This document shows, in pieces, positions 1,862 through 20,117 of a stretch of DNA of 20,339 bases (positions are counted from its first letter, which is position 1; every line of letters begins with the position of its first letter). Under the pieces are notes generated by a model. That model was not told the origin of the DNA. It saw only the letters and a list, made by a program, of their open reading frames with translations, and ran no database searches. Origin of the DNA: a virus; the IMG/VR virus record IMGVR_UViG_3300017753_002155, positions 1 through 20,339 of that record, one strand, 5' to 3'. The position numbers were made by a program, and so were the translations under genes.

Positions 1862-1883
1862 ATATCTAACAATGGAGTAAGGT

Positions 1884-4752: not shown

Positions 4753-4957
4753 AAAAAAATTTCAAGAAGAAGCCAGAACAGCCAGAACTACAGGTGATCT
4801 TTATAACGAATATAGCAATTCAAGATTGACTAAGGAAGTAGAAGATCTTAAAGAAAGGTTAAAAAAGGTAGAAACTGACATGGCATATACACAGAAGATT
4901 AGATTTGCTCAAAGTCCTGAAGAGCAAAGAATAAATGACATAAGGAATATAGATTGA
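4727..4957 (+). CDS. Small helical hypothetical protein
   Basis: 76 residues, strongly charged and predicted to be largely alpha-helical. The middle part (about 30-58: SRLTKEVEDLKERLKKVETD) has heptad-like spacing of L/V and alternating K/E, so a short coiled coil is likely. No recognised family. ATG 4727 has GGGAG 8 bases upstream and overlaps the deaminase end by 26 bases. Its stop TGA is shared with the TTG start of the next gene. The conserved coupling suggests a real gene, but no function is offered. Confidence 0.6.
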   Translation: MSATQEWLRKKFQEEARTARTTGDLYNEYSNSRLTKEVEDLKERLKKVETDMAYTQKIRFAQSPEEQRINDIRNID

Positions 4958-5334: not shown

Positions 5335-5335
5335 T
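5307..5335 (+). promoter_or_regulatory. Sigma-70-like promoter P3
   Basis: TTTACA at 5307-5312, 17 bp, TATAAT at 5330-5335 within AACTGTGGTATAAT. The TAA stop of the upstream gene (5332-5334) is part of the -10 box. It is followed by a leader ACAATTGAGTAAGGAG (5342-5357) very similar to that of P2. Confidence 0.8.
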
Positions 5336-5363
5336 ATACCTACAATTGAGTAAGGAGCTAAAT

Positions 5364-6602: not shown

Positions 6603-6603
6603 A

Positions 6604-7554
6604 ATGAAACAGATCTTTATAACCGGCATTGCCGGAATGATTGGCATGCATTGTGCCTTAAAATTTCACGAACTAGGATGGAAGGTATGTGGCATTGATA
6701 ACTTCAATGATTACTACGATACTAAACTAAAATTAGACCGCGAAGAAAAACTCAATCAAAAAGGTATTGAAGTTATCACCGGTGATATTCAGCATCCTGA
6801 TTGTTATAGTGAAGCATTACAATCGTCAGATGCAGTATTACATTTAGCGGCATATGCTAATCCACGGCACTCATACGAGGAGCCACAACATTACATTGAT
6901 ACGAATATTACTGGTACACAACGTATACTTGAACAAGCTGAAATAAACGATACACCGGTTGTATACGCATCGAGTTCATGTGTCATGCATGGCCAACCAC
7001 TTCCATGGAATGAACATGACTTATCGCACCACCAGAATAATGCGTATGGCTGGTCAAAGCGAGCAAATGAATGCCAGTTCATGTATTCAAGACTCAGCAA
7101 AACTGCTGGTCTTCGTTTCTTTACTGTGTATGGTCCGTGGGGTCGACCCGATATGGCACTATTCCTATTTGCTGATGCTATTGTAAAAGGTACACCACTT
7201 ACATTGTTTAACTATGGAGACATGAAACGTGACTTTACTTATGTCGAAGATATTGTACAAGGTGTAGTTCTCGTAACTGATGATCTTATTGCAAAAGAAG
7301 ATGATAAATCACATGAGATTTACAATATTGGTTATGGCAATAAAGTAAACCTAATGGACTTTGTTAATCACATTGAAACTAACTTTGGTCGCAAAGGTGT
7401 ATATGACATGCAACCAGCTCATCCAGCTGATGTACCAGAAACTTGGTCAGATACATCAAAGATAAGAAAGCTTGGTTATGATCCAAAGACACCAATTGGT
7501 AGAGGTGTTTATGAATTCGTAGCTTGGTACAAGGATTACTATAATGTCAATTAA
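6604..7554 (+). CDS. UDP-glucuronate 4-epimerase-like SDR
   Basis: 316 residues, extended short-chain dehydrogenase/reductase, expected to interconvert UDP-glucuronate and UDP-galacturonate with bound NAD. The Rossmann motif is GIAGMIG (8-14). DNFNDYYDTKLK (32-43) and GLRFFTVYGPWGRPDMALF (169-187) are diagnostic of the CapI/GAE group of UDP-glucuronate 4-epimerases rather than of GalE. The active site has S123-S125 and Y148xxxK152. MKRDFTYVEDIVQGVV and the C-terminal DVPETWSDTSKI...GYDPKTPI...WYKDYY also fit the group. It begins one base after the glycosyltransferase stop, behind AGGAA. UDP-glucuronate decarboxylases are related, so UDP-xylose or another product is not excluded. Confidence 0.85.
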   Translation: MKQIFITGIAGMIGMHCALKFHELGWKVCGIDNFNDYYDTKLKLDREEKLNQKGIEVITGDIQHPDCYSEALQSSDAVLHLAAYANPRHSYEEPQHYIDTNITGTQRILEQAEINDTPVVYASSSCVMHGQPLPWNEHDLSHHQNNAYGWSKRANECQFMYSRLSKTAGLRFFTVYGPWGRPDMALFLFADAIVKGTPLTLFNYGDMKRDFTYVEDIVQGVVLVTDDLIAKEDDKSHEIYNIGYGNKVNLMDFVNHIETNFGRKGVYDMQPAHPADVPETWSDTSKIRKLGYDPKTPIGRGVYEFVAWYKDYYNVN

Positions 7555-8365
7555 CATTGCAATTGTAGGACATGGATATGTAGGGAAAGCCGTTGACCAC
7601 GGCTTCTCCACGAGTCAAGTAACAAAGCATATCGTAGATCCAATTTATGGAACTACGATTGACGATATTCTATGTGATAAATTGGATGCAGCTTTTGTCG
7701 CAGTACCAACTCCATTCGGAGCTGATGGTGAGATAGATGCATCAATTGTAGAAGAAGTTGTAAGAGAACTAGGACGTTTCAATTGTCCTATCGTTATTAA
7801 GTCTACAACTACACCTGATGTAGTCGATAAACTTTACTTAGAAAACGATAATGTTGTTTTTAATCCTGAGTTCTTAACAGAAAAGAATGCTTTGCATGAT
7901 TTTATCAATCCGCCTATGCATGTCTTTGGTGGTAAGAGAGCGAATACTAAAGCATTGCTTGAACTATACGAAAATTATTCTCAGTGTACACCTTGTCCAT
8001 CATACCATATGACTGCCAAGGAAGCAGCTTTCGTGAAGTATGGAATCAATTCTTTCCTTGCTACTAAAGTTCTATGGTTTAATCAATTCAAAGATATAGT
8101 TGATGATTATAATAGTAAGTACAATGTGATTGTGAATGCTATTGGTTCAGATCCACGCATTGGTCATAGTCATACTCAAGTACCGGGACCAGATGGCCGT
8201 AAAGGTTTTGGTGGAGCATGTTTTCCTAAAGACACCAATGCTTTTTCTACATTTGCGAAGGGTGAGTTTACTGCCTTAGACGAAGTGATTCGAGCTAATA
8301 ATACATATAGACAAGAATATGAACTTGATGAACGTGAAAAAGAACAGAAAGTAAACTATGACTAA
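7544..8365 (+). CDS. ugd: Short UDP-glucose/GDP-mannose dehydrogenase-like protein
   Basis: 273 residues of the UDP-glucose 6-dehydrogenase family, which oxidises UDP-glucose to UDP-glucuronate with two NAD+. NAD-binding motif GHGYVG (9-14), VAVPTP (52-57), KSTTTPD (86-92), the catalytic-glutamate strand FNPEFLTE (106-113), the substrate-site helix KYGINSFLATK (165-175) and the catalytic cysteine loop GFGGACFPKD (221-230, C226) are all present. Typical members are about 390-450 residues; this one stops soon after the cysteine domain and central helix and lacks the C-terminal UDP-binding Rossmann domain. The stop is clean, with the next gene overlapping by 8 bases, so it looks like a naturally short form. 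It supplies the substrate for the preceding epimerase. Confidence 0.83.
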   Translation: MSINIAIVGHGYVGKAVDHGFSTSQVTKHIVDPIYGTTIDDILCDKLDAAFVAVPTPFGADGEIDASIVEEVVRELGRFNCPIVIKSTTTPDVVDKLYLENDNVVFNPEFLTEKNALHDFINPPMHVFGGKRANTKALLELYENYSQCTPCPSYHMTAKEAAFVKYGINSFLATKVLWFNQFKDIVDDYNSKYNVIVNAIGSDPRIGHSHTQVPGPDGRKGFGGACFPKDTNAFSTFAKGEFTALDEVIRANNTYRQEYELDEREKEQKVNYD

Positions 8366-9557
8366 TTATGCGAGTATAGTACCACTCATAGGTGGTGAAA
8401 CAATTGCTATGCAGAATGTATTTGGTTCTCGGCCTGAGTACATTTTGTCTTATGAAGGATTCGAGGCTAATGATAAGCACTTGGTTGAATACTATAAAAA
8501 TGAAGTTCCTTACCATCTCATTAAAGATGATCAGCTTCCTGATGTTAAGTCTGTTGATGTCATTAACACTGTTTGTCCTTGTGCTGGCTTGTCTAGTCTT
8601 AATGTACATAGCTCTTCCGATGCTGCTGCTAATGATTGGATGCGTACTAGCGCAAAGTATGTACTCGGTACTCTCAAACCAAAAGTGTTTTGGGGAGAAA
8701 ACGCACCAAGACTTGCTAGTAAAATGGGAGAACCTGTTGTCGAAGATCTACGAGAAATTGCAAGAGAAAACGGATATACTTTTTCACTATATAAAACAAA
8801 AAGTATACTCCACGGGCTTTCTCAAGTAAGAGAACGTGCATTTTATTTTTTCTGGAAAGGTGAAAAAGTACCCGTTTTCGAATATATAAAACGGAAACAC
8901 GAAACGATCGAAAGCACAATACGTCTTGTAAAAAACAATGCTGACGATCCGATGAGTGTTCTTACTAACACTAATATACCATCAAATGATCCTTACTATA
9001 AGTATGTCCTAGAAGAAATAGAAGGAGGCATAAGCCACTCTCAATTTCAGGACAAAATTAAAAAGAGTTGTGACGTTAAGCATTACATCGAGGATAGTGG
9101 CGTAAAGTATAATAAGGTAGCAGACTGGATGGACAGGAATGGATATGAAAAGCAATCCACTCGTTGTCGTACAATGTATGAAAAATTAAAGTCAGGCGGA
9201 AACATAATGCGTAGAGGTGTTAATATTCCGAAAGGATATATTGGTGCTTTTGTAGGTTCATATCCTACTTCATTGACTCATCCAGATGAAGATCGTTTCT
9301 TAACAATCAGAGAATGTCTGTCAATCATGAAACTACCAGAGGATTTTATTCTCCAAGGTGGAAACAAAAACATAAATCATATATGCCAAAATGTTCCGGT
9401 GACTACAGCACAGGACATGGCCGAGCACGTCTTAAAATTCTGTGACGGCAGACTTGATAACCGGTTGGTTGATACAGATTTTCTAGTACAAGATAACAAG
9501 ACACGTAGTATAGACTACAAAAAAAGTAGTGTACAATTAGATGAATTTATGGTATAA
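8358..9557 (+). CDS. DNA C5-cytosine methyltransferase-like protein
   Basis: 399 residues with the ordered motifs of cytosine-C5 methyltransferases. Motif IV is TVCPCAGLSSLN (71-82) with the PC catalytic cysteine C75. Motif VI is GENAPR (113-118), ENV-like with the usual form altered. Motif VIII is SQVRERAFYFF (155-165, QxRxR), motif IX is RECLSIMKLPEDF (318-330), and a motif X-like QNVPVTTAQDMAEHV follows. Motif I (VPLIGGETIAMQNVF, 8-22) is degenerate compared with FxGxGG. The region 170-310 would be the target-recognition domain. It is the last gene of the P3 unit, and its TAA lies inside the -10 of P4. In a phage with hydroxymethylated cytosines a C5 enzyme might act before substitution, on host DNA, or have a changed reaction. 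Confidence 0.8.
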   Translation: MTNYASIVPLIGGETIAMQNVFGSRPEYILSYEGFEANDKHLVEYYKNEVPYHLIKDDQLPDVKSVDVINTVCPCAGLSSLNVHSSSDAAANDWMRTSAKYVLGTLKPKVFWGENAPRLASKMGEPVVEDLREIARENGYTFSLYKTKSILHGLSQVRERAFYFFWKGEKVPVFEYIKRKHETIESTIRLVKNNADDPMSVLTNTNIPSNDPYYKYVLEEIEGGISHSQFQDKIKKSCDVKHYIEDSGVKYNKVADWMDRNGYEKQSTRCRTMYEKLKSGGNIMRRGVNIPKGYIGAFVGSYPTSLTHPDEDRFLTIRECLSIMKLPEDFILQGGNKNINHICQNVPVTTAQDMAEHVLKFCDGRLDNRLVDTDFLVQDNKTRSIDYKKSSVQLDEFMV

Positions 9558-9558
9558 T
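9530..9558 (+). promoter_or_regulatory. Sigma-70-like promoter P4
   Basis: TGTACA at 9530-9535, 17 bp, TATAAT at 9553-9558 preceded by TTTATGG. The upstream stop TAA (9555-9557) forms part of the -10 box. It drives the uvsX-helicase unit through a short leader with AAAGGAGA. Confidence 0.8.
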
Positions 9559-9586
9559 AGTATCATATTGTCAAAGGAGATATATT

Positions 9587-10633
9587 TTGAGTATTATGGA
9601 TAAATTGAAGAAGAATAGCAAAGTCAAAGAAACTTCTATTCTTTCTGAATCTAAATTTTTTAATCAAAAAGATTTTGTAACAACACACGTTCCAATGATG
9701 AATGTTGCATTGTCTGGTGATATTGATGGTGGATTAATCCCGGGTCTTACTGTACTCGCTGGTCCATCCAAACATTTTAAGACTTCGTTTGGTCTTATCA
9801 TGGCAAGTGCATATCTTAAGAAATATCCAGACTCAGTATTGCTATTCTATGATTCAGAGTTTGGTTCGCCACAGGCTTACTTCGAACAATTTGATATTGA
9901 TACAAGTCGTGTATTACATACACCTATTACCAATGTCGAAGAATTGAAGTTTGATTTGATTGGCCAACTAGAAGGATTGGATCGTAATGACAAGGTTGTT
10001 GTTATGATTGATTCGGTTGGTAACCTAGCATCAAAGAAAGAAATGGAAGATGCCATTAACGAGAAGTCAGTGGCTGATATGTCTCGTGCAAAAGCACTCA
10101 AAGGTTTGTTCCGTATGTCAACACCATACTTGAACATGAAAGATATACCTTTGATTGCAGTTAATCATACGTACATGGAGATTGGTCTATTCCCGAAAGC
10201 CGTAGTCTCTGGTGGTACAGGAATCTATTATTCTGCTGACAATATCTGGATATTAGGTCGTCAGCAGGACAAAGTCGGTACGGAAATTAAAGGCTACCAC
10301 TTTGTTATTAATGTGGAGAAGTCAAGGTATGTCAAAGAAAAGTCTAAAATACCTATTAGCGTGTCTTGGGATGGCGGGGTTCAGTCTCATAGCGGCTTAC
10401 TCGACGTCGCTCTTACTGGCAATTACGTTGCTAAGCCTAGTAACGGTTGGTACTGTCGTGTTGATCGAGATACTGGAGAACTCATGGACCCCAAGGTCAG
10501 AGAAAAAGACACACTGGATCCCGGATTCTGGCAACCAATCTTCGCCGAAACCGATTTCAAGAGTTACGTTAAATCCAAATTCAGCATCGGTGGACCAACT
10601 GCTGGAGAGGAAGAACCACAAGATGCAGCATAA
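9587..10633 (+). CDS. uvsX: UvsX RecA-like recombinase
   Basis: 348 residues, phage T4/cyanophage-type UvsX, the strand-exchange ATPase that drives recombination-dependent replication with UvsY and Dda/gp41. Walker A is GPSKHFKT (59-66), Walker B VVMIDSVGNLA (138-148). The N-terminal MDKLKKNSKVKETSILS and the VNHTYMEIG (about 195-203) and GGTGIYYSADNIWILGRQQ segments are typical of marine T4-like UvsX. The start is TTG 9587, because AAAGGAGA lies at normal distance from it, whereas the ATG at 9596 would be too far. First gene after P4; its last 11 bases overlap the next gene. Confidence 0.93.
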   Translation: MSIMDKLKKNSKVKETSILSESKFFNQKDFVTTHVPMMNVALSGDIDGGLIPGLTVLAGPSKHFKTSFGLIMASAYLKKYPDSVLLFYDSEFGSPQAYFEQFDIDTSRVLHTPITNVEELKFDLIGQLEGLDRNDKVVVMIDSVGNLASKKEMEDAINEKSVADMSRAKALKGLFRMSTPYLNMKDIPLIAVNHTYMEIGLFPKAVVSGGTGIYYSADNIWILGRQQDKVGTEIKGYHFVINVEKSRYVKEKSKIPISVSWDGGVQSHSGLLDVALTGNYVAKPSNGWYCRVDRDTGELMDPKVREKDTLDPGFWQPIFAETDFKSYVKSKFSIGGPTAGEEEPQDAA

Positions 10634-10922
10634 GGAAAATGTAACTTATCAATTAGTTCCCGGTAGTGATGGTGACCAACATTGGTTAGTACGTTTTATG
10701 GAAGGACCATATACTGAAACAGTTATTCAGTATGGTGCTATATCGATTAATGAAACCGGTGCCGGTGTTATGAACTTCAACTTCTTTGTTGAGTCATCAC
10801 CGGATTCTGAACTTACTTCTGAAGATGTTGGTTTACAAGAATGGGCTGGTGATGTTTTACAAGAAATTCTTCGTCAAGGTGTCGAAGAAGGTAGTGTAGA
10901 TTTAAGTGATAAAGAGGAATAA
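10623..10922 (+). CDS. Small acidic hypothetical protein between uvsX and helicase
   Basis: 99 residues, acidic, with a probable beta-rich N-terminal half (NVTYQLVPGSDGDQHWLVRF, 6-25; then EGPYTETVIQYGAI) and an acidic C-terminal helix (WAGDVLQEILRQGVEE). No recognised domain. ATG 10623 overlaps the uvsX stop by 11 bases; the longer open frame back to 10302 lies in uvsX and is rejected. The stop TAA shares its last base with the helicase ATG (TAATG). A small gene at this position between uvsX and gp41 is, from general knowledge, common in marine T4-like phages, which supports a role alongside replication. Confidence 0.7.
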   Translation: MQHKENVTYQLVPGSDGDQHWLVRFMEGPYTETVIQYGAISINETGAGVMNFNFFVESSPDSELTSEDVGLQEWAGDVLQEILRQGVEEGSVDLSDKEE

Positions 10923-12310
10923 TGCAAGCAAATCTTGAACAGACGATATTAAGAAACCTGCTAACCGATGAAAAGTATATGCGCAAAGTATTACCTTTTA
11001 TCAAGCCAGATTATTTCCAAGGTGTCTATCGTATATTATTTAAGGAAGCCGGTAAGTTTGTTGGAAAATATAATAAACTTCCTAGTGCCGAAACATTTAA
11101 GATTGAGTTGGATCAATCTGAAATGCTCGGTGGAGAACAATATAGTGTTGCCGTAGATATACTGCCACAATTGTTTTCAAAAGAAAAGATTGACGATACA
11201 TGGCTGATTGATACTACAGAAAAGTGGTGCCAAGATCGTGCGATCTATAATGCTGTTATGGAATCAATCTCTATCATCGATGGTAAACATGAATCATTAA
11301 CTAAAGGTGCTTTACCCGATTTATTATCAAAAGCACTTGGTGTGGCATTCGATACAAACGTAGGTCACGATTATATCGAGAATGCAGATGATCGTTTCGA
11401 GTTCTACCATAAAGAAGAAAATCGTATTCCATTCGATCTCGAATATTTCAACAAGATTACTAAAGGTGGTGTTCCAAACAAGAGTTTGAATATTTGCCTT
11501 GCGGGTACTGGTGTAGGTAAGTCATTATATATGTGTCACCTTGCCTCGGCTAACCTTGCTGCTGGTTCTAATGTTTTGTATATCACAATGGAAATGGCAG
11601 AAGAAAGAATTGCAGAACGTATTGATGCTAACTTATTGAATGTACCTATTGACCAACTCGAAAATTTGTCGAAGGATATGTTCTCAACTAAAGTTGCCGA
11701 TCTACAACGTAAGACAAATGGTAAGCTTATTGTAAAGGAATATCCTACTGGCTCTGCACATTCCGGCCACTTCCGTGGTTTACTCAATGAATTGAAACTA
11801 AAAAAGCAGTTTGTTCCTGACATAATATATATTGATTACTTAAACATTTGCGCATCATCTCGTATGAAAGCAATGGGAGGATCAATTAATTCCTACACGT
11901 ATATTAAAGCAATTGCAGAGGAACTTAGAGGATTGGCAGTTGAATTCAACCTACCAATATTCTCAGCGACGCAAACGACTAGGTCAGGTTTTAGCAATTC
12001 GGATGTTGGTCTGGAAGATACATCTGAGTCTTTCGGTTTACCAGCTACGGCGGATCTTATGTTCGCCCTTATCTCTACCGAAGAGCTTGAAAACCTGGGT
12101 CAGCTCATGGTTAAACAATTAAAAAACAGATACAACGATCCCACACAATATAAACGGTTTGTTCTTGGGGTTGATAGAGCTAAGATGAGACTCTATGATG
12201 TTGATGAATCGGAACAAACGCTAACACCAGATCAAGATACTCCAGTGTTCGATAGGTCTATCAGTGGAGAAAAAATCAGATCTGAAAAGTTCGAGGATTT
12301 CAAGTTATGA
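10922..12310 (+). CDS. 41: Replicative DNA helicase (gp41/DnaB family)
   Basis: 462 residues, hexameric 5'-3' replicative helicase of the T4 gp41/DnaB type. The N-terminal helical domain (about 1-150) would contact the primase. The RecA-like motor has Walker A LAGTGVGKS (193-201), the ITMEMAEERIAERI segment (221-234, motif 1a region with the catalytic glutamate), Walker B DIIYIDYLN (300-308, D305), and the SATQTTRSG (about 348-356) motif 3. The C-terminal arginine-finger region FVLGVDRAKMRLY is present. It is coupled to its neighbours by TAATG upstream and ATGA downstream. Since the candidate primase at 483 is not DnaG-like, their interaction may differ from that of T4. Confidence 0.93.
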   Translation: MQANLEQTILRNLLTDEKYMRKVLPFIKPDYFQGVYRILFKEAGKFVGKYNKLPSAETFKIELDQSEMLGGEQYSVAVDILPQLFSKEKIDDTWLIDTTEKWCQDRAIYNAVMESISIIDGKHESLTKGALPDLLSKALGVAFDTNVGHDYIENADDRFEFYHKEENRIPFDLEYFNKITKGGVPNKSLNICLAGTGVGKSLYMCHLASANLAAGSNVLYITMEMAEERIAERIDANLLNVPIDQLENLSKDMFSTKVADLQRKTNGKLIVKEYPTGSAHSGHFRGLLNELKLKKQFVPDIIYIDYLNICASSRMKAMGGSINSYTYIKAIAEELRGLAVEFNLPIFSATQTTRSGFSNSDVGLEDTSESFGLPATADLMFALISTEELENLGQLMVKQLKNRYNDPTQYKRFVLGVDRAKMRLYDVDESEQTLTPDQDTPVFDRSISGEKIRSEKFEDFKL

Positions 12311-12516
12311 TTTATAAAGGACCGGAATTAAGTACCTATTGGGGAAGTGATGAGTATGCTGATAGACGTGCAGAAGTACTGCATGATGAAGAAGCTGGTT
12401 TCTACGTTGAAATGTATTATAAAGATGAGCTCATAGAAACAAGACCACTATATGAACATAGTGAAAGATATGCTGAAGACTGTGCAGAAAATTACGTAAT
12501 GGGAATACCAAAGTAA
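12307..12516 (+). CDS. Small acidic hypothetical protein
   Basis: 69 residues, rich in D/E and Y, for example GFYVEMYYKDELIETRPLYEHSERYAEDCAENYVMG (read in parts, 31-66). It looks like two or three strands followed by a helix. No family recognised. ATGA overlap with the helicase stop and TAATG overlap with the next gene support it as a translated gene of the same operon. Confidence 0.65.
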   Translation: MIYKGPELSTYWGSDEYADRRAEVLHDEEAGFYVEMYYKDELIETRPLYEHSERYAEDCAENYVMGIPK

Positions 12517-12713
12517 TGCAAGTATTGTGGCACTTAATGTTAACTGTTTGTATGGATGGAACCTGTGCTAAGCAGGAAGTACAAAGATTTGATCCACCAA
12601 ATGCTAAAGTAAAATGTGAAGTAATGTTGCCAATATATAAAGAAGTTCCTCTAGATAGTGAAGGTGGAACAGTTGAGTATATTTGCAAGCCATTAGGAAG
12701 TGTAGGTACATAA
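12516..12713 (+). CDS. Small hypothetical protein with hydrophobic N-terminus
   Basis: 65 residues. The N-terminus MQVLWHLMLTVCMDGTCA is hydrophobic with paired cysteines C12 and C17. Two more cysteines follow, at C34 and C56. The layout recalls small phage and enterobacterial proteins with a hydrophobic strand followed by C-x4-C, but no family is assigned. It is coupled by TAATG on both sides, between the small gene above and thyX. Confidence 0.55.
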   Translation: MQVLWHLMLTVCMDGTCAKQEVQRFDPPNAKVKCEVMLPIYKEVPLDSEGGTVEYICKPLGSVGT

Positions 12714-13372
12714 TGCAAACAAGACTAATCAGTTATAGTAAACCACCGGAGGAACTCTATGTCGGTAACGATCTCCAAGAACTTATTGCGTACGCAGCCC
12801 GTGTCTCGAATCCCTCGAACCAAGATAACACCGAAACCTCGGAAAAATTATTACGATATCTCATTAGAGAAAAACACTGGTCGCCATTTGAAATGGTTAG
12901 CGCTTGCCTAGAAGTTACAACTACACGTGATATTGCAAGACAATTACTAAGACACAGGTCATTCTCGTTTCAAGAGTTTAGTCAAAGGTATGCTGATCCT
13001 ACACAAGATCTTAAGTTTCAATTTAAGAATGCACGCTTACAAGACACAAAGAATAGACAGAATAGTTTAGATGTAAACGATCCTGACTTAAAATTAGAAT
13101 GGTTGCAACAACAGGCGGAGGTAGTAAATGCTGCAAAAAAATCTTACAATTGGGCAATTGAAAATAATATTGCGAAAGAACAAGCTCGTGCAGTTTTGCC
13201 GGAAGGTATTATGGAATCCCGCTTGTACGTCAACGGGACCATTAGGTCCTGGATCCATTATATCGGATTACGTTCAGGTCATGGCACACAAAAAGAACAC
13301 ATAGAATTAGCCAGATCTTGTGCTGAATCTTTAGAACCAGTATTTCCTATGATAAAAGAATTTTGTAACTAA
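12713..13372 (+). CDS. thyX: FAD-dependent thymidylate synthase ThyX
   Basis: 219 residues, flavin-dependent thymidylate synthase (dUMP to dTMP using methylene-THF, NADPH and FAD). The signature RHRSFSFQEFSQRY (80-93) matches RHR-x7-S. The C-terminal EQARAVLPEGIMESRLYVNG and RSWIHYIGLRSGHGTQKEH segments carry the substrate-binding arginines typical of ThyX. ATG 12713 overlaps the previous stop (TAATG); a longer frame from 12683 is inside that gene. It complements the dCMP deaminase at 4267. The phage thus uses the unrelated ThyX for dTMP while its thymidylate-synthase-fold gene is the hydroxymethylase. Confidence 0.93.
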   Translation: MQTRLISYSKPPEELYVGNDLQELIAYAARVSNPSNQDNTETSEKLLRYLIREKHWSPFEMVSACLEVTTTRDIARQLLRHRSFSFQEFSQRYADPTQDLKFQFKNARLQDTKNRQNSLDVNDPDLKLEWLQQQAEVVNAAKKSYNWAIENNIAKEQARAVLPEGIMESRLYVNGTIRSWIHYIGLRSGHGTQKEHIELARSCAESLEPVFPMIKEFCN

Positions 13373-13394
13373 CCGAAACAGAAGGGAGAAACAT

Positions 13395-14453
13395 ATGTTT
13401 CGAAAATTACTAGTAGCGGGTGCAATGTTGCTTTCCGCTTTAACTATGGCTCATGCAGAACCAGTTAAAGTTGGATTCGTATACGTAGGCCCAGTTGGTG
13501 ACCATGGATGGACATACCGTCATGACATTGGTCGTCAACAAGTAGAAGAAGCTTTTGGCGATAAAGTTAAAACAACTTACGTTGAAAGTGTTAAGTATGG
13601 TCCAGATGCTGAGCGTACAATTCGTATGTTAGCACAAACCAATGATATTGTATTTGCCACATCATTTGGTTATATGGAGCCAATGTTAAAAGTTGCCAAG
13701 GAGTTTCCTAACGTATACTTTGAACACGCTACGGGATATAAGCAAGCAGATAACATGAGTTCTTATGGATTGCGTCTATACCAAGCACGCCATGTGCAGG
13801 GTATTATTGCGGGTATGATGACTAAGACTAATAAGATTTGTTATGTTGCTGCATATCCTATCCCTGAAGTTATTCGTGAGATTAACACATATTATATGGG
13901 TGCCAAGAAGATGAATCCGGATGTCGACATCGATATCGTATGGGCAAACACTTGGTATAATCCTAGTAAAGAAGCAGATGCTGCTAACGTTATGATGGCA
14001 GAAGGTTGTGATATGGTAGCACAGCACACTGATTCTCCTGCACCATTACAGGCTGCGCAACAACAAGGTAAGTTAGGTTTTGGTCAGGCAAGCGATCAAT
14101 ACAAATTTGCACCTAAGGCACAGCTCACAGCGACCATTGATAATTGGGGACCTTATTACATTAAGAAGGTTGGCCAAGTTATTGCTGGTAACTGGCAAAA
14201 AGAAAACTACTTTGGACATATGAAAGACGGGGCTGTGCAAATGGCGCCATTCACAAATATGCCTGAAGATGTAAGGATTAAAGCACAAGAGATTAAAGAT
14301 ATGATCTCTCATGGTCATTACTTTGCATTTACAGGACCAATTAGAGACAACACTGGTAAGCTTCAATTGAAAGACGGTGAAGTCGCAGATGATATGCATC
14401 TTAATAGTATGATGTACTATGTAGAAGGCATTGACGCTACGGTACCGAAGTAA
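13395..14453 (+). CDS. BMP-family periplasmic substrate-binding protein
   Basis: 352 residues, BMP/PnrA/Med family (type I periplasmic binding fold), the substrate-binding part of ABC importers for purine or other nucleosides. Residues 1-21 form a signal peptide (MFRKLLVAGAMLLSALTMAHA, read as K/R start, hydrophobic core, AHA cleavage site) with no lipobox cysteine, so the product should be free in the periplasm. VGFVYVGPVGDHGWTYRHD (from 27), the central GIIAGMMTKTNKICYVAAYP (about 135-154) and WYNPSKEADAANVMMAEGCD with VAQHTDSPAPLQAAQ are characteristic. AGGGAGA precedes ATG 13395. No transport permease or ATPase gene is in the window, so it would have to work with the host's importer. It is probably host-derived (inference) and sits with a 2OG oxygenase in the uvsX-thyX unit. 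Confidence 0.88.
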   Translation: MFRKLLVAGAMLLSALTMAHAEPVKVGFVYVGPVGDHGWTYRHDIGRQQVEEAFGDKVKTTYVESVKYGPDAERTIRMLAQTNDIVFATSFGYMEPMLKVAKEFPNVYFEHATGYKQADNMSSYGLRLYQARHVQGIIAGMMTKTNKICYVAAYPIPEVIREINTYYMGAKKMNPDVDIDIVWANTWYNPSKEADAANVMMAEGCDMVAQHTDSPAPLQAAQQQGKLGFGQASDQYKFAPKAQLTATIDNWGPYYIKKVGQVIAGNWQKENYFGHMKDGAVQMAPFTNMPEDVRIKAQEIKDMISHGHYFAFTGPIRDNTGKLQLKDGEVADDMHLNSMMYYVEGIDATVPK

Positions 14454-15313
14454 TGATTCCAGTAATTGATTTCACTAGTGAATCAGTATTGGACCAGATA
14501 CGCGAGGCCTACACTACCGTAGGCTTCGCAGTATTTACTAATACACTCACATCTAATGACCAGCGTATAATGTATCGTTGGTTTGAGGACATGAAAGGTT
14601 TCTTTGAATTAGACATAGAAACTAAAAAGCAATATTCATATCAAGCTGAAAATAATTTAGGATATAGCATAATGGGTGCAGAGAATGTAGATCCGACTGC
14701 TCCTAAGGATATGAAAGAAAGTTTTAATTACAATAATACTCGAATGCCAGAAGAACTCTGGCCGCGAGAAGTAGAAGGTTTCAAAGAGAATGGTTTAGAA
14801 ACTATTCGAATTGCAGATGATTTAACACTGAGAATTTTAGAAAAGTTTGATACTATTCTTGATACGGGTACTACACTCGTGGATGCACACCAAGATCCTT
14901 ATAATACTACACGTGTTATACACTATCCCGCGTACACGGGCCCGCTCGAAGATAAACAAATGAGAATTGGAGAGCACAGCGATTACGGTACTATTACGCT
15001 TCTGTGGCAGATTAACGATGTTCCGGGACTCGAAGTACAAGATCTCGAAGGATCATGGCACGCGGTACCGTATGCAAATGATGGAGTAGTAGTTAACATT
15101 GGTGACTTACTACAACGTTGGACTAATGATTACTTTGTGAGTACAAAGCATAGAGTTGTAAATACTCATATAGATCAGACACGATATAGTATGCCACACT
15201 TTGTAGATCCTACACCGGGTACTATGATCGTAAATCTTAGAGATGAACCGAGTAAATATGATCCGATTGAAAGTAAAGAGTACTTAATGTGGAGATTAGC
15301 ACAGAGTTATTAA
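14453..15313 (+). CDS. 2-oxoglutarate/Fe(II) oxygenase, isopenicillin-N-synthase-like
   Basis: 286 residues, non-heme iron 2OG dioxygenase of the isopenicillin N synthase-like group. An N-terminal DIOX_N-type region (IPVIDF at 2-7, GFAVFTN at 24-30) precedes the jelly-roll core. The iron ligands are H175 and D177 (GEHSDYGTITLL) and H233 (STKHRVVN). The 2OG-binding RxS is R244-Y-S246 (RYSMPHF), and the typical VNIGDLLQRWTND (214-226) is present. TAATG coupling to the BMP gene suggests the two act together. Relatives hydroxylate small molecules, including free nucleobases in some organisms. A nucleoside or base substrate would fit the neighbour, but this is inference. It is the last gene of the unit; a weak hairpin and promoter P5 follow. 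Confidence 0.87.
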   Translation: MIPVIDFTSESVLDQIREAYTTVGFAVFTNTLTSNDQRIMYRWFEDMKGFFELDIETKKQYSYQAENNLGYSIMGAENVDPTAPKDMKESFNYNNTRMPEELWPREVEGFKENGLETIRIADDLTLRILEKFDTILDTGTTLVDAHQDPYNTTRVIHYPAYTGPLEDKQMRIGEHSDYGTITLLWQINDVPGLEVQDLEGSWHAVPYANDGVVVNIGDLLQRWTNDYFVSTKHRVVNTHIDQTRYSMPHFVDPTPGTMIVNLRDEPSKYDPIESKEYLMWRLAQSY

Positions 15314-15314
15314 T

Positions 15315-15345
15315 TGCATTTTTTTTCAAATAAAATGCATTTTAT
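15315..15345 (+). terminator. Weak AT-rich hairpin, possible terminator
   Basis: TGCATTTT (15315-15322) and AAAATGCA (15332-15339) form a perfect 8 bp inverted repeat with a 9-base loop, followed by TTTTA. It lies directly after the oxygenase stop and before P5. The low GC content makes it a weak terminator at best; it could also be chance in AT-rich DNA. Confidence 0.35.
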
Positions 15346-15347
15346 GG

Positions 15348-15376
15348 TGTACAAACGGAAAAAACTATGGTATAAT
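15348..15376 (+). promoter_or_regulatory. Sigma-70-like promoter P5
   Basis: TGTACA at 15348-15353, 17 bp, TATAAT at 15371-15376 within AACTATGGTATAAT. Unlike P1-P4 it lies in true intergenic DNA. The leader AAAATGGAAAAGGA (15386-15399) repeats that of P1. Confidence 0.8.
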
Positions 15377-15411
15377 AGATCTATAAAATGGAAAAGGAAG
15401 AGGAGTCCTTA

Positions 15412-15639
15412 ATGTCTAAGCCAATTTCAAATGCAGCCTACAAGAAGTTGATTCTATCATTGTCTATAGAAAGACAAATCGAAAGTGTAGAGCGTATGCT
15501 TCGTGTAATTCCACATTGGTTGATGGAAGAAGCAGCACGTCCAATCCAAAACGAGAAAGTTATTAAGCATCTCGAGTCTCGCTTAAGACAAGCTCGATTA
15601 ATGATGTCTTCAATCATAGCAAATGGAAGGGTTGTATAA
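15412..15639 (+). CDS. Small helical hypothetical protein
   Basis: 75 residues, mostly helical and basic (KKLILSLSIERQIESVERML, read from 11; then KVIKHLESRLRQARLMMSSI). No family recognised. ATG 15412 is preceded by GAGGAG; an in-frame ATG at 15388 lies in the P5 leader and is less likely. First gene of the P5 unit, TAATG-coupled to the nuclease-like gene that follows, so it may be a partner of that protein (inference). Confidence 0.65.
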   Translation: MSKPISNAAYKKLILSLSIERQIESVERMLRVIPHWLMEEAARPIQNEKVIKHLESRLRQARLMMSSIIANGRVV

Positions 15640-16202
15640 TGTTATTCTTAGACAAGTACGAATTACAAGCACCAAAGAAACGAGGTGCTCGATCTGAAGA
15701 GCAATCTTTAGAAATGTTTCAGTATTTAGCTGAAAAAACATATCAAATAAACATGTCACAAAAATCAGCAAATGTTGAAACCATGAAACAAATGGCTGGC
15801 ACGGTTGGCGAGAATATGATCGCAGATCTTACAAGAGGACAAGTTGTCTTAAGAGAATTTGATGTACTTGTATTAGAAAATCAGCGTTTAACTAACGGAA
15901 TTGATCTTCGTATTGGAGACCGAATAGAAGTAAAGAGCGCTGTAATTCAATCTGATGGTTCTTGCATTGCATATAGTTTGTCTGGTAAAGAAAAACATTG
16001 TGATTTTGTAGCTTTAGTTGATATGACTAGACAACAAGACGAGATTAGAATATCGATTATTCCAACAGATGTTTTCTTTACTTATGGTGCTTTCAATGGA
16101 AACAAAGAAAGATTCGGCTGGAGTGGAAGTTTTAACAAAAATGATCGTATTAGAGTAAAAAACACAGAAATGTTTTTAGAATATGAGGTGTGGGGTCAAT
16201 GA
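15639..16202 (+). CDS. PD-(D/E)xK nuclease-like protein
   Basis: 187 residues. A helical region (1-65) including a glutamate in GTVGENMIADL (E58) is followed by the core GIDLRIGDRIEVKSA (87-101), giving D89...E97-x-K99. Then comes a strand-turn-strand (SCIAYSLSGKEKHCDFVALV) ending in the CDFVALV strand frequently seen in restriction-like folds, where a K/H pair (K119-H120) precedes C121-D122. The C-terminus, with FGWSGSFNKNDRIRV, is uncharacterised. A DNA-cleaving role is likely but the substrate is unknown. Coupled by TAATG upstream and ATGA downstream. It is unrelated in detail to the nuclease-like protein at 1393. Confidence 0.6.
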   Translation: MLFLDKYELQAPKKRGARSEEQSLEMFQYLAEKTYQINMSQKSANVETMKQMAGTVGENMIADLTRGQVVLREFDVLVLENQRLTNGIDLRIGDRIEVKSAVIQSDGSCIAYSLSGKEKHCDFVALVDMTRQQDEIRISIIPTDVFFTYGAFNGNKERFGWSGSFNKNDRIRVKNTEMFLEYEVWGQ

Positions 16203-16762
16203 AAAAGTTAACCAAATGGTATTTGATTGCATGTGCTTTGTCATTCGCCGGTGGATTATACACAGGAAAATCAGCTTTTGCTTCAGTTGCAAACGCACAT
16301 CCTTTCCACTCGCCAGATGCAGAAATGAAATGCATTGCAGATAATGTATATTGGGAAGCTCGTAATCAATCAACGAAAGGAATGATCGGTGTCGCTCTTG
16401 TCACTCGCAATCGTGTTAATGATAGTCGTTTTCCTCACTCATATTGTGAGGTTGTTATGGAAGGACCTACACGACCTTCGTGGAAAAACGTTAACGTTTA
16501 TATCCCTGTGCGTCACCGGTGTCAATTTAGCTGGTATTGTGATGGGAAGTCTGATAATATTCCTATTTTTGATCTCGACGTCTATGGCTTTGCTCGTACC
16601 ATCGCTTTTAAGATCTATCACGGAGAACTCACAGATTTTACCGGCGGTGCTACTCATTATCACGCCGACTACGTAAGACCAGCATGGGCTAAATCTAAGA
16701 CAAAAACTATTACTATTGATGAACATATTTTTTATAAGTGGGAAAGACCGAATGCAAATTGA
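16199..16762 (+). CDS. Exported SleB-type cell-wall hydrolase
   Basis: 187 residues, Hydrolase_2/SleB family (lytic transglycosylase or glucosaminidase acting on peptidoglycan). Residues 1-33 (MKKLTKWYLI then ACALSFAGGLYTGKSAFA) make a signal peptide or signal anchor with cleavage near AFA or ANA. The catalytic region IADNVYWEARNQSTKGMIGV (46-65) holds the probable catalytic glutamate E53. RNRVNDSRFP, a C-x-FSWYCDG segment and GGATHYHADYVRPAW are typical of the family. ATG 16199 overlaps the previous TGA (ATGA). This is the best endolysin candidate in the window, and the secretory N-terminus suggests holin-independent export. T4 itself uses an unrelated lysozyme. Confidence 0.85.
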   Translation: MKKLTKWYLIACALSFAGGLYTGKSAFASVANAHPFHSPDAEMKCIADNVYWEARNQSTKGMIGVALVTRNRVNDSRFPHSYCEVVMEGPTRPSWKNVNVYIPVRHRCQFSWYCDGKSDNIPIFDLDVYGFARTIAFKIYHGELTDFTGGATHYHADYVRPAWAKSKTKTITIDEHIFYKWERPNAN

Positions 16763-17030
16763 TTATAAGTTTAATGAAGGTGATCTGATTGACGAGTTTC
16801 AATCATATATTGATTCTACATATAACTCACACTATTCAAAAGATAAGTTCCAAGCCACCGAGTTTATCATTGACGGTGGCCATGGAACAGGTTTTTGTAT
16901 GGGTAATGTTATGAAGTATGCACAGCGTTATGGCAAAAAAGGTTCTAAGTCAGACGCTCGGAAGGATTTGCTGAAAGTTCTTCATTACGCATTGATTCAG
17001 CTATACGTTCACGATCAAGATTGTGAATAG
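16752..17030 (+). CDS. DUF3310 protein
   Basis: 92 residues. The core NVMKYAQRYGKKGSKSDARKDLLKVLHYALIQL (read in parts, 52-84) is the DUF3310 signature, a short helical domain widespread in phages, often near nucleotide metabolism genes and of unknown activity. ATG 16752 lies 11 bases inside the hydrolase gene, so the longer frame from 16716 is rejected. Its 3' end overlaps the tail of a - strand gene by 86 bases, a convergent overlap. Confidence 0.75.
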   Translation: MQIDYKFNEGDLIDEFQSYIDSTYNSHYSKDKFQATEFIIDGGHGTGFCMGNVMKYAQRYGKKGSKSDARKDLLKVLHYALIQLYVHDQDCE

Positions 17031-17172
17031 CCCAGAAGATTCTTTCCTTTATATCTGAACATCTTTTTTCTAGATCTGTTCGTGGTATGTGAACATACAC
17101 ACTATTTTCGTATGTCCACCCGACAAACAAAGAAAAAAGAAACAATAGAATGAAAGTAAAGACAAATATCAT
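16945..17172 (-). CDS. Small membrane protein
   Basis: 75 residues. Residues 1-18 (MIFVFTFILLFLFSLFVG) form a single N-terminal membrane helix or uncleaved signal, followed by a charged helical domain (DLEKRCSDIKERIFWAIHNL, read from 33). It begins in an ATGA overlap with the stop of the - strand gene upstream, which is the main evidence that it is translated. Its last 29 codons or so overlap the DUF3310 gene on the other strand, unusual but compatible with convergent compact phage genes. Function unknown; a lysis or envelope role cannot be told apart from a structural one. Confidence 0.6.
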   Translation of the reverse strand: MIFVFTFILLFLFSLFVGWTYENSVYVHIPRTDLEKRCSDIKERIFWAIHNLDRERIAESMRNEELSANPSERLT

Positions 17173-17651
17173 GCTGCTATGTACAGCACATAAATCATAG
17201 CACCACCTCCAAGTAAGATAGCAAGTACTATTATCATCATCATTTTCATTTGCTCCCAGAACTCAGCCTGTTCTTTGAGTTTTTGCTTTTTAATGCGAGC
17301 CACTTCTTCTTTATGTTCTTGTATACGTTTTGCTCTTTCAGCTAAGATACTTTTCCAAGTACCCGGGCCAAAACGCATGTCAACCATTTGTGCTACTTCT
17401 TGCAATTTCTCTTGAGCAAGTTTAGCATCAATCATTTCTTGTGCTACTGACTCTACACCGAACTGATCAGCTAGGCCAGGAGCTTTTTGAGCTTTTTTAT
17501 TTCTATTCTGATTTGTTTCATCAACACCGCGAAAGAGTCCATCAATAGAGCCAGCAATTGCACTTATATCATTACAAGTATCAATCTGCGATTTGATAAA
17601 ATCTACGCTTTGTTTAACCAAAGCTATTCCCGCTAAGGTTTCTGCAATCAT
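17169..17651 (-). CDS. Tail-anchored coiled-coil membrane protein
   Basis: 160 residues. The N-terminal third is helical (ETLAGIALVKQSVDFIKSQI), the centre (about 85-135) is a long K/E/Q-rich segment with coiled-coil character (ERAKRIQEHKEEVARIKKQK), and residues 137-157 (MMMIIVLAILLGGGAMIYVL) are a single C-terminal membrane helix, so it is probably tail-anchored. The ATG is preceded on its strand by AAGGA. A TATAAATA box lies about 75 bases upstream. The opposite strand and late-type box suggest late expression, possibly virion or lysis related. No family recognised with confidence. Confidence 0.75.
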   Translation of the reverse strand: MIAETLAGIALVKQSVDFIKSQIDTCNDISAIAGSIDGLFRGVDETNQNRNKKAQKAPGLADQFGVESVAQEMIDAKLAQEKLQEVAQMVDMRFGPGTWKSILAERAKRIQEHKEEVARIKKQKLKEQAEFWEQMKMMMIIVLAILLGGGAMIYVLYIAA

Positions 17652-17725
17652 TTTGATTTATCCTTTTTAAGTGTTATGGATAAATATGATTCACCTTTCG
17701 CATATTATGTCTCGCCCCTTGTAAC

Positions 17726-17733
17726 TATTTATA
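17726..17733 (-). promoter_or_regulatory. T4-late-type promoter box (TATAAATA), leftward
   Basis: Read on the - strand, 17733 to 17726 is an exact TATAAATA, the late promoter core recognised by the T4 gp55 sigma factor. It stands in the divergent gap 17652-17798, upstream of the two - strand genes. An 8-base AT-rich match can be chance, but its position is right. Confidence 0.5.
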
Positions 17734-17766
17734 AAAAATAGCCCAAAATTCAGCGTAACTTGTATA

Positions 17767-17772
17767 TATAAT
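17767..17772 (+). promoter_or_regulatory. Possible -10 box for the aaRS-like gene
   Basis: TATAAT at 17767-17772 in the divergent gap, 27 bases before the next ATG. No convincing -35 is seen at 17 bp, and it lacks the ACTATGG extension of the P1-P6 family. A GATAAATA variant of the late box also occurs at 17679-17686. The rightward promoter of this unit is therefore unsettled. Confidence 0.35.
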
Positions 17773-17798
17773 AAGATTTATGTGCAAAGGAAAAATTA

Positions 17799-18638
17799 AT
17801 GACACAACTTATAGACCCCAAGAAATTTACAGATACCGTTGGCCTATTAAGGTCTTTTTTTATAGGTAAAGGATTCCTCGAAGTCCATACTCAAAACAGA
17901 CTCAGCATACTTGCTGCATGTGAGGATCCGTTCAATGTGGCTACTTACAACTATGCGGGCCAAGTCTGGCCTCTACCACAAACCGGCCAGATGTGGTTGG
18001 AACATGAATTGTTAAGTAGCCCCGATACTCCGGGGTTTTTTTGTGTTTCCACTTCGTACAGGCAAGAACCAAATGCAATACCGGGTAGACATGATATTAT
18101 CTTTCCGATGTTTGAATTTGAAATGCCCGGTGACATAAACGATCTTAAAGATATGGAATATGAACTATGCGAATACTTAGGTTTTGGTGGCTTTGGTGAA
18201 ATAGTTGCAAGACCATACTCAGAGTGGCAAAAACATTATGGCCTTAGTGAAGATACAGAGATGGAAGCAGAACATGAATTAAAGATGTACGAAGAGTTTG
18301 GTGTCACAATGATAACAGACTTTCCTGAAATGACAAGTCCATTTTGGAATATGTCACGCAATGGGGATGGTACAAGTAGAAAGATCGATGTTATCCTTGG
18401 TGGTATGGAAACAATAGGTAGTGCAGAACGTAGCACTGACGTTGATCAAATGAGAGATACCTTCCATACGATTACAGATGGTGCATACAGTAACTTACTG
18501 TTTGATCTTTTCGGTAAAGATCGAGTAGAAGCAGAACTAGAAGAGTTCTTAAAGTTTGACTTCTTTCCACGTGTAGGTGGAGGAATCGGCATGACAAGAA
18601 TGATTGCTGCTCTCGAAAAATACGACGGTCCATACTAA
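17799..18638 (+). CDS. AsnRS/AspRS-related class II synthetase core (AsnA-like)
   Basis: 279 residues corresponding only to the catalytic domain of class II aminoacyl-tRNA synthetases of the Asp/Asn/Lys group. Motif 2 is FCVSTSYRQEPNAIPGRHD (81-99, R88xE90) continuing to FEFE (105-108). Motif 3 is GGGIGMTRM (260-268, R267). There is no N-terminal OB-fold anticodon-binding domain; the chain begins almost at the motif 1 helix. Free-standing cores of this kind include an archaeal AspRS/AsnRS-related protein known to make asparagine from aspartate, and paralogues that aminoacylate. AAAGGAAA precedes ATG 17799. The gene ends 6 bases before a tRNA gene with a GUU (Asn) anticodon. Both asparagine synthesis and tRNA charging are open. 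Confidence 0.8.
   Translation: MTQLIDPKKFTDTVGLLRSFFIGKGFLEVHTQNRLSILAACEDPFNVATYNYAGQVWPLPQTGQMWLEHELLSSPDTPGFFCVSTSYRQEPNAIPGRHDIIFPMFEFEMPGDINDLKDMEYELCEYLGFGGFGEIVARPYSEWQKHYGLSEDTEMEAEHELKMYEEFGVTMITDFPEMTSPFWNMSRNGDGTSRKIDVILGGMETIGSAERSTDVDQMRDTFHTITDGAYSNLLFDLFGKDRVEAELEEFLKFDFFPRVGGGIGMTRMIAALEKYDGPY
18018..18042 (+). terminator. Intrinsic-terminator-like hairpin inside the aaRS-like gene
   Basis: CCCCG (18020-18024), a 6-base loop, CGGGG (18031-18035), then seven T (18036-18042). The stem extends by a G-U and an A-T pair. It encodes SSPDTPGFF of the reading frame, so it may be a codon accident. Its form is the best rho-independent terminator in the window, lying about 220 bases into the gene. 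Confidence 0.4.
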
Positions 18639-18644
18639 ACTTAT

Positions 18645-18729
18645 TGCTGGGTGGTGAAATCGGTAAACACGCATGACTGTTTCTCATGTGCGGAAACGCT
18701 TGCAGGTTCGAGTCCTGCCCCAGCAGCCA
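18645..18729 (+). tRNA. Atypical tRNA, anticodon GUU (Asn) on a class II (Leu-like) body
   Basis: 85 bases folding into a full cloverleaf with encoded CCA. Acceptor TGCTGGG/CCCAGCA, 7 pairs; discriminator G. D-arm GTG/CAC with loop AAATCGGTAAA, almost the same as tRNA-Leu. Anticodon arm CATGA/TCATG with loop CTGTTTC, placing GUU at 34-36. Long variable arm of 13 bases with stem GCG/CGC. T-arm GCAGG/CCTGC with loop TTCGAGT. Long variable arms belong to Leu, Ser and Tyr tRNAs, whereas U1-A72, G73 and GUU are features of tRNA-Asn. U37 is abnormal, since a purine is nearly universal there. It follows the aaRS-like gene by 6 bases and is probably co-transcribed. A recently degenerated tRNA is the main alternative. 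Confidence 0.8.
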
Positions 18730-18745
18730 ACTTGAATATTAGCTG

Positions 18746-18774
18746 TTTACTTTTATGAATAACTGTGGTATAAT
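18746..18774 (+). promoter_or_regulatory. Sigma-70-like promoter P6
   Basis: TTTACT at 18746-18751, 17 bp, TATAAT at 18769-18774 within AACTGTGGTATAAT. It starts 17 bases after the tRNA and reads into the tmRNA and the Rieske-like gene. Confidence 0.8.
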
Positions 18775-18780
18775 AATAGT

Positions 18781-18788
18781 TATAAATA
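18781..18788 (+). promoter_or_regulatory. T4-late-type promoter box (TATAAATA)
   Basis: Exact TATAAATA, 6 bases after the -10 of P6. Late transcription from it would start near 18793-18795, right at the presumed 5' end of the tmRNA acceptor piece. Chance occurrence is possible in AT-rich sequence. Confidence 0.45.
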
Positions 18789-18846
18789 CTATAGAAGATG
18801 TTTGACGGTAGACTGGACCCGGGGGCGGTACCCGGCGCCTCCACCA

Positions 18847-18874
18847 ATATTCACCGATAACGGTGCATGCTTAT
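18847..18874 (+). other. tmRNA intervening segment (removed on processing)
   Basis: The 28 bases between the encoded CCA and the 5' G of the coding piece contain a perfect hairpin CACCG-ATAA-CGGTG (18852-18865). In permuted tmRNAs this joining segment is cut out of the precursor, leaving two RNAs; the hairpin may help present the ends to RNase P and 3' processing nucleases (inference). Confidence 0.7.
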
Positions 18875-18922
18875 GGGGGCGAAATAGGATCGACAGATGC
18901 AGGAGTCTTCAAAAAAGTAAAT

Positions 18923-18967
18923 GCAAACGATAATTTTGCACCTACAGGTTACGCCCTAGCGGCATAA
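18923..18967 (+). other. tmRNA proteolysis-tag reading frame
   Basis: Starts at the resume codon GCA and reads ANDNFAPTGYALAA then TAA. The N-terminal ANDN block is usual for proteobacterial tags. The C-terminal ALAA is the ClpXP/ClpAP-recognised degron. The two Asn codons, AAC and AAT, are those a GUU anticodon would read. Confidence 0.9.
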
Positions 18968-19028
18968 TGCTGATGAGCCCGAAGGAGCTTGGAAACAGAA
19001 TCCTTCAACTTATTCATAAGGAGAAAAC

Positions 19029-20117
19029 ATGCCACCACGTAATCATAGTAATTGGACTAAGACACCGAAGGTAGAATATATTAGTAGTGAGTGCTACAAT
19101 AATTATGAGATATTCAAACAAGAACAAGAAGATATATTTGCTAAAGTTTGGATTCCTATGTGTCATATAAGTGAGATGTATGACTTAGGTTCTTTCAGAA
19201 CAACTCAAATTGCAGGTGTCAATGTTTTAGCAGTTAATTCTAATTTTGGTGTAAAGGCATATAAAGATCATAATATTAGAACTCCCAGTGGAGTAATGAG
19301 TAGTTTACCTGATGAAGGAACAGAGCTACATTGTGAAGTAAAACATGGTGGAATGGTTTGGGTAACACTCGATCCTAATCCATCACAGAGTGTAGAAAGC
19401 TGGACAGCCGGCGCTTTCGATTGTATTGCAGATGCAATCGATACAGAAGAGATGGAAGTATTTCACTATCATAAAGCAGTTATAGATACAAACTATAAAC
19501 TGTGGCATGATACAAATAGTGAGTTCTACCACGACTTTATGCATTACTTTAATAGAGTATCAGGATTTAATGATGAATACTTTGCTAGAAAGAATATTCC
19601 TTTTGATAATGGTCACGTCAATGTCAGCAGTTTTACTGTTAACTATGAAGAATACGATGGGTTTGAGGATCGAGGTGAACTCTCATTCCCCAACTTACCA
19701 CCGAACCAGTGGTACATGGTTGACCTCTTCCCAGGATTTAACTTCAACCTACGTGGCAGCGCATATCGTTCTGACGCGGTAACACCGTTAGGACCAAACA
19801 AAGTATTGATCGAGTTCCGTGGTTATGGACTCAGGAAAGATACACCAGAAGAAAGACAGACTAGAATAAAGCATCATAATTCTATTTGGGGACCATTCGG
19901 TCGCAATCTCCATGAAGATTTAATCGGTGTTGCAGGTCAAGGTACGACCATGAGAGAAGGTACCGAAGCAAGAAACATTCTACACGGCCGTCATGAAAAT
20001 TCTACAATTCATGATGAAGTAGGTATGAGACATTATTATGAGGCATGGGGAAATATGTTAGGGGTAAACCCAATGAACCCTCTCACAACACAGGAGCTAA
20101 GTAGAAAAGCTGCATAA
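19029..20117 (+). CDS. Rieske-type oxygenase-like protein with altered cluster site
   Basis: 362 residues aligning in outline with the large subunit of Rieske non-heme iron oxygenases. The N-terminal part FAKVWIPMCHISEMYDLGSF (37-56), VNVLAVNSNFGVKAY and the HGGMVWVTLDPNP strand (106-118) follow the Rieske domain. The C-x-H...C-x2-H cluster motif is altered: the first pair reads K79-D-H81, and the second is C102-x3-H106. The catalytic domain keeps a likely mononuclear iron site, NYKLWHDTNSEFYHDFMH (155-172), with H168 and H172. AAGGAG just after the tmRNA serves ATG 19029, so it is probably transcribed from P6 with the tmRNA. It could have lost electron-transfer ability, bind a different metal centre, or have a non-oxygenase role. 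Substrate unknown. Confidence 0.75.
   Translation: MPPRNHSNWTKTPKVEYISSECYNNYEIFKQEQEDIFAKVWIPMCHISEMYDLGSFRTTQIAGVNVLAVNSNFGVKAYKDHNIRTPSGVMSSLPDEGTELHCEVKHGGMVWVTLDPNPSQSVESWTAGAFDCIADAIDTEEMEVFHYHKAVIDTNYKLWHDTNSEFYHDFMHYFNRVSGFNDEYFARKNIPFDNGHVNVSSFTVNYEEYDGFEDRGELSFPNLPPNQWYMVDLFPGFNFNLRGSAYRSDAVTPLGPNKVLIEFRGYGLRKDTPEERQTRIKHHNSIWGPFGRNLHEDLIGVAGQGTTMREGTEARNILHGRHENSTIHDEVGMRHYYEAWGNMLGVNPMNPLTTQELSRKAA

Follow-up and report, generated by a model that had tools for sequence, protein, structure and literature searches.

A predicted two-piece tmRNA gene of a T4-like marine phage: absence of PK1, a conserved late promoter octamer and small ORFs in the spacers of relatives

Does a T4-like marine phage encode its own ribosome-rescue RNA, and at which stage of infection would this RNA act? 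The question is raised by a locus in the virus record IMGVR_UViG_3300017753_002155, the DNA of which was analysed from position 1 to 20,339 (hereafter the window). An initial annotation had recognized a phage-encoded split tmRNA at 18790-19019, with permuted gene order and in a lytic-phage context. The coordinates proved right to within about 10 nt and the context is borne out by T4-like genes, including UvsX, a gp41-type helicase and an endolysin. We consider it probable (about 0.8) that the two-piece tmRNA encoded at this locus is functional and serves a T4-like marine phage for late-phase trans-translation, with the AlaRS, RNase P and SmpB of the host; its expression, processing, charging and tagging activity are what we infer here. 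The missing first pseudoknot (PK1), the late promoter octamer at 18781-18788 and the viral relatives go beyond the initial annotation.

Identity and structure of the tmRNA gene

Two Rfam covariance models searched with Infernal match the + strand of the window. The alpha_tmRNA model (RF01849) covers 18742-19010 with 106.3 bits (E 1.6e-28, whole window; curated cut-off 50 bits) and tmRNA_permuted (RF04321) covers 18794-18967 with 90.5 bits (E 1.3e-16, whole window; curated cut-off 47 bits). Thus, the split and permuted gene described initially is recovered by the alphaproteobacterial model. Judged from its sequence, the segment 18794-19010 (+) is an alphaproteobacterial-type permuted (two-piece) tmRNA gene, with the following features.

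18746-18774, + strand: sigma-70-like promoter, TTTACT-17-TATAAT with TG before the -10 box (consensus scan, 10/12)
18781-18788, + strand: T4-type late promoter octamer TATAAATA, expected start at about 18794; position conserved in relatives
18794-18846, + strand: acceptor piece, with the 5′ strand of P2 at 18794-18799 (covariance model, relatives and inspection by eye)
18819-18835, + strand: T arm of the acceptor piece
18836-18842, + strand: 3′ strand of the acceptor stem, followed by A73 (18843) and an encoded CCA (18844-18846)
18847-18874, + strand: spacer of 28 nt with a CACCG-AUAA-CGGUG hairpin, without ORF
18875-19010, + strand: coding piece, its approximate 3′ end taken from the Rfam match
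18875-18881, + strand: 5′ strand of the acceptor stem, in the coding piece
18905-18910, + strand: 3′ strand of P2, then a 12-nt linker (18911-18922) without PK1
18923-18964, + strand: tag reading frame, from the resume codon GCA at 18923, reading ANDNFAPTGYALAA; stop codon TAA at 18965-18967
18974-19006, + strand: PK2, a helix with a crossing stem, conserved in relatives
18981-18986/19001-19006, + strand: PK2 stem, GAAGGA/TCCTTC
18974-18978/18987-18991, + strand: PK2 crossing stem, TGAGC/GCTTG

The acceptor piece is encoded upstream of the coding piece and the acceptor stem joins both. Its 7 base pairs (18836-18842 with 18875-18881) can be read by eye in the complementarity of CGCCTCC to the GGGGGCG that starts the coding piece at 18875. 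They include G3-U70, the alanine identity pair, which is accompanied by A73-CCA. Pairing across the spacer and a complete tag had both been claimed at the outset; the former is sustained by compensatory changes among viral relatives (183 distinct sequences) and the latter by the frame and stop codon listed above. Single-sequence folding of the acceptor piece gave a result no better than shuffles (z 0.5), so that the structural claim rests on the covariance model and on covariation, not on folding energy.

Viral relatives were collected by an exact acceptor-end pattern search (109 viral stretches) and by a coding-piece pattern search (at least 120 viral stretches). From all viral loci, 252 permuted tmRNAs were parsed, and 183 of them are distinct; these loci are related, so that the counts below are not independent events. 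Acceptor-stem pairing played no part in the selection, while four of the five T-stem pairs were required. Within the 183 sequences, the bases of acceptor pairs 5 and 6 change together (G-C/C-G/T-A and C-G/T-A) with few mismatches. Compensatory changes are found at T-stem pairs 1-4 of this preselected set, pair 1 being C-G in 100 sequences, G-C in 50, T-A in 23 and A-T in 10, without any mismatch. G3-U70 is present in 182/183 and A73 in all 183. Downstream of the tag, the PK2 helix occurs in 166 loci, with 60 distinct helix sequences, and its crossing stem in 165. As it appears in these alignments, the covariation of the stems is far beyond chance.

The gene is patchily distributed. Directly after it in the window lies a Rieske/ring-hydroxylating oxygenase-like gene (19029-20117, +; PF00848), relatives of which occur in at least about 600 viral contigs; a tmRNA is found just upstream in 13 of 72 relatives sharing this gene. 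Within the 137.6 kb searched of C48C1, the closest annotated phage found (excluding bases 1-18529), no tmRNA was detected.

Other neighbours deserve mention. Positions 17799-18638 encode the 279-aa core of an AsnRS-like class II synthetase (PF00152; phrog_29758), which lacks an anticodon-binding domain and is followed at 18645-18729 by a tRNA with the Asn anticodon GUU. This tRNA has U1-A72 and G73, together with a D arm of Leu-like type and a variable region that is long (11-37 nt). This order, with 4-10 nt between synthetase and tRNA genes, was parsed in 76/80 viral loci and also occurs in cyanophages P-SSM7 and P-SSM2. The two are a candidate phage-owned synthetase/tRNA-Asn pair; the rival view is that the protein plays an asparagine-synthetase-A-like role. 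For the AsnRS-like protein, the modelled structure has low confidence (pLDDT 58.6), and the structure matches are no more than indicative. Further upstream, a BMP/PnrA-family ABC transporter substrate-binding protein is encoded at 13395-14453 (+; PF02608, E 4e-49; no PHROG match), here in a phage, and a 160-aa ORF with a C-terminal hydrophobic stretch and no Pfam or PHROG match lies on the opposite strand (17169-17651, -).

Loss of PK1, tag peptides and spacer ORFs

In the window, only 12 nt separate P2 from the resume codon GCA; PK1 is absent from this interval and its columns are deleted for the window in the covariance-model alignment. The window copy shares this absence with 69 others. The resume codon lies 46-50 nt into the coding piece at 54 distinct loci or 57-59 nt into it at 16 loci, and in both groups the linker that joins P2 to this codon has a median length of 11 nt. 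With a linker of about 11-12 nt, a pseudoknot does not fit before the resume codon. In the longer class (63 analysed loci), the resume codon is found at least 79 nt into the coding piece; loci having it at 60-69 nt were placed in neither class. Two-piece tmRNAs typically, though not universally, carry both PK1 and PK2 (PMC3985003).

The two classes differ in detection. ARAGORN missed the window tmRNA, its output there being a tRNA alone, and recognized none of 22 tested loci of the PK1-less class versus 17/21 of the longer class. A published survey of phage tmRNAs relied on ARAGORN (PMC9004378) and, because of this tool, probably missed the PK1-less class, which suggests that ARAGORN-based surveys undercount phage tmRNAs. 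Loss of PK1 could weaken frame setting or folding. If functional, these RNAs would form a natural tmRNA class without a pseudoknot before the resume codon and would bear on how the reading frame is set.

The tag itself had been proposed to be phage-specific, and this view holds for the collections searched. In any codon spelling, ANDNFAPTGYALAA occurs in 22 viral contigs, and an exact scan of 84,980 cellular species genomes gave 0 matches. The relaxed form ANDNFAPxx[FYSC]ALAA was met in one contig among cellular genomes, inside a MAG; from the names given to its ORF translations (clamp-loader-like, sliding-clamp-like and other T4-like genes), this would be a phage contig. Nevertheless, the two ends of the tag, ANDNFA and ALAA, are ordinary alphaproteobacterial and protease-recognition ends, ALAA being an established protease signal (PMC3985003). 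Because both ends are ordinary, ANDNFAPTGYALAA represents a variant within a known kind of tag, not a new one. Among 72 distinct viral tags, ANDN is kept in 67 and LAA in 56, with a variable middle. ANDNFAPTGYALAA is present on at least 10 RNA scaffolds belonging to both structural classes; most of its loci were found via the tag, so that this is evidence for sharing between scaffolds and not for a rate of change. Unusually long tags of 29-31 residues occur at loci L239, L034 and relatives (e.g. ANDNVAQPKFMKKRNTFARKVGFTKGMALAA, ANDNALSNVTFVDFSAPVTAVNEDFALAA).

The 28-nt spacer of the window contains no ORF. Among relatives, 35 of 108 distinct spacers of at least 60 nt carry a Shine-Dalgarno-like motif with an ORF of at least 17 codons; mononucleotide shuffles of the 108 spacers gave an expectation of 9.3 such ORFs and a maximum of 14. 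Spacer ORFs with ribosome-binding sites are seen at L023, L026, L236, L248, L388, L143, L293, L307, L276, L300, L352 and L400 (Melnitz). One family, MDEVLLWQFRQ...MMGAK, recurs with four tags, and its differences are concentrated at the third position of codons (48, 28, 116). Another, MEIIWHILLTVC..., recurs with two tags and has a free-standing homologue in the window (12516-12713, +; 53% identity, E 5e-18), the small protein MQVLWHLMLTVC..., related to the spacer-borne protein of L143, L293 and L307. A further homologue, recognized by eye, is MelnitzEXVC044M_85, whose gene directly precedes the tmRNA in Melnitz. For a third family (L276/L300), free-standing homologues are numerous. Some spacer ORFs run into the tmRNA coding piece and stop there at the TAG of GGGGCGAAATAG; for some short "families" ending in ...SLMGAK, similarity is limited to the end of the spacer and to tmRNA sequence, and these may not be genes. 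The closeness of loci with different spacers is illustrated by L023: its coding piece is 100% identical to that of the window and its acceptor piece 87%, for spacers of 109 and 28 nt.

We lean, by a small measure, towards the idea that in T4-like marine phages the spacer is a cargo site for small proteins, several families of which end in GGG GCG AAA TAG. One late transcript would then be both mRNA and tmRNA precursor, with translation and maturation competing; the window would represent an empty site, within a PK1-less class overlooked as invisible to ARAGORN. The open-licence literature yielded no publication on tmRNA spacer ORFs. The spacer of permuted tmRNA genes would hold an unnoticed coding capacity.

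Timing of expression and proposed function

The octamer TATAAATA is located 13 nt before 18794, where the acceptor piece begins; a T4-type late promoter would have it about 13 nt before the start. Taken alone, its presence in the window is no more than chance would give. Its position in relatives is more telling. The exact octamer is found within 60 nt upstream of the acceptor-piece GGAC in 121/171 loci, versus 1.0% of control windows taken at random from the same loci, and an octamer variant occupies the same place in 148/171, versus 2.2% of controls. The distance from octamer to GGAC varies little inside any one structural class (33-36, 41-50 and 39-48 nt). Phage C48C1, which encodes a gp55-like late sigma factor, has the octamer within 80 nt upstream of 7/30 structural-region genes and of 0/60 early-region genes. 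Late promoters of T4 belong to the TATAAAT type (PMC9004378, PMC3037559); in pelagimyophages, an earlier method reportedly revealed no late promoters (PMC7029224). Taken together, the promoter sequences suggest that the tmRNA is expressed late, contrary to the early expression proposed for the Melnitz tmRNA (PMC9004378). The initial annotation had suggested that the RNA could keep ribosomes recycling while host mRNA is degraded; the promoter architecture leads away from a role in early host-mRNA decay. For phage ribosome rescue, the resulting claim on timing is simple: late, not early.

The following scheme may be envisaged. During late infection, a transcript would begin at about 18794 under the control of the phage sigma factor; the acceptor piece begins at this same position, so that no trimming would be needed there. 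Host RNase P would cleave before 18875 and the RNA would be trimmed behind CCA (18846). Both pieces would remain paired and host AlaRS would charge the RNA with alanine. The tmRNA would then bind host SmpB and enter ribosomes stalled on broken mRNAs, where A+ANDNFAPTGYALAA would be added to the nascent protein and the ribosome released, ALAA sending the tagged product to ClpXP-type proteases. A host SmpB would be needed because a search that was positive for 10/14 control genomes detected none among 20 large viral contigs of the group (most bearing a tmRNA, none certified complete). The gain for the phage would be the recycling of ribosomes at peak translation demand, during virion protein synthesis.

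Other readings have to be weighed against this late rescue. In the proposal made for Melnitz (PMC9004378), the tmRNA would be expressed early, here from the sigma-70-like promoter, and would tag host proteins for degradation to amino acids. The TTTACT-17-TATAAT element at 18746-18774 may indeed leave room for early expression, and a -10-like box occurs upstream in 66/149 octamer-bearing loci; the consensus scan that detected the element was overall at chance level (3 found vs 2.6 expected), so that the element alone carries little weight. Early expression is unlikely in our opinion, since occurrence and spacing are far more regular for the late octamer, since TATAAATA precedes GGAC by a few tens of bases in Melnitz itself, and since ribosome rescue tags anything on a stalled ribosome, with no selectivity for host proteins. 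Still less credit is given to a decoy or poisoned tmRNA that would block the host tmRNA factors. Such an RNA has a precedent in the tag-less tmRNA of phage DS6A (PMC11915505) and would agree with the absence of PK1. However, DS6A has no tag frame, whereas the window keeps a full tag, a stop codon, PK2 and a protease-type end, and tag features are conserved over 72 distinct tags.

There remains the view that the locus is a functionless remnant of a captured host gene, or host DNA in the contig. tmRNA genes are common integration sites of prophages (PMC11915505) and the presence of the gene is patchy. Yet the flanking genes are those of a T4-like phage, more than 180 distinct viral relatives display paired-base covariation and T4-type promoters, close relatives retain conserved pairs with an intact tag frame, and the sole relaxed-tag match in cellular genomes is the T4-like phage contig in the MAG. 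We therefore regard this explanation as highly improbable.

Comparison with known systems

tmRNAs of this kind are already known. Two-piece tmRNAs have been published for Methylophilales phage Melnitz and related marine myophages (PMC9004378), and one database contains 79 bacteriophage tmRNAs (PMC11915505). What is new is that PK1 is lost, that a late promoter octamer is conserved and that spacers of relatives carry ORFs.

Like the window, Melnitz is a T4-like marine phage having a permuted alphaproteobacterial-type tmRNA with TATAAATA upstream and its own tag, read as ANDNYVPVDYALAA. Unlike the window, Melnitz has a coding piece that is longer before the resume codon, with sequence able to form PK1, and a much longer spacer with a small ORF. 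A glutamine riboswitch was also reported in Melnitz (PMC9004378); none was detected in the window even at E 5. With the cellular two-piece tmRNA of alphaproteobacteria (RF01849; Caulobacter), the window tmRNA shares the order of the pieces, the T-loop type GGCGGTA, G3-U70, A73-CCA, an ANDN...AA tag and PK2. It differs in lacking the PK1 positions of the model, in its phage-type late promoter octamer and in a tag not found in the searched cellular genomes. Finally, plastids offer another case of natural pseudoknot loss: some of their tmRNAs retain few pseudoknots or none, with the tRNA-like domain kept (PMC3985003). Those genes are under reductive evolution, whereas the gene of the window is viral and permuted, and it has kept PK2.
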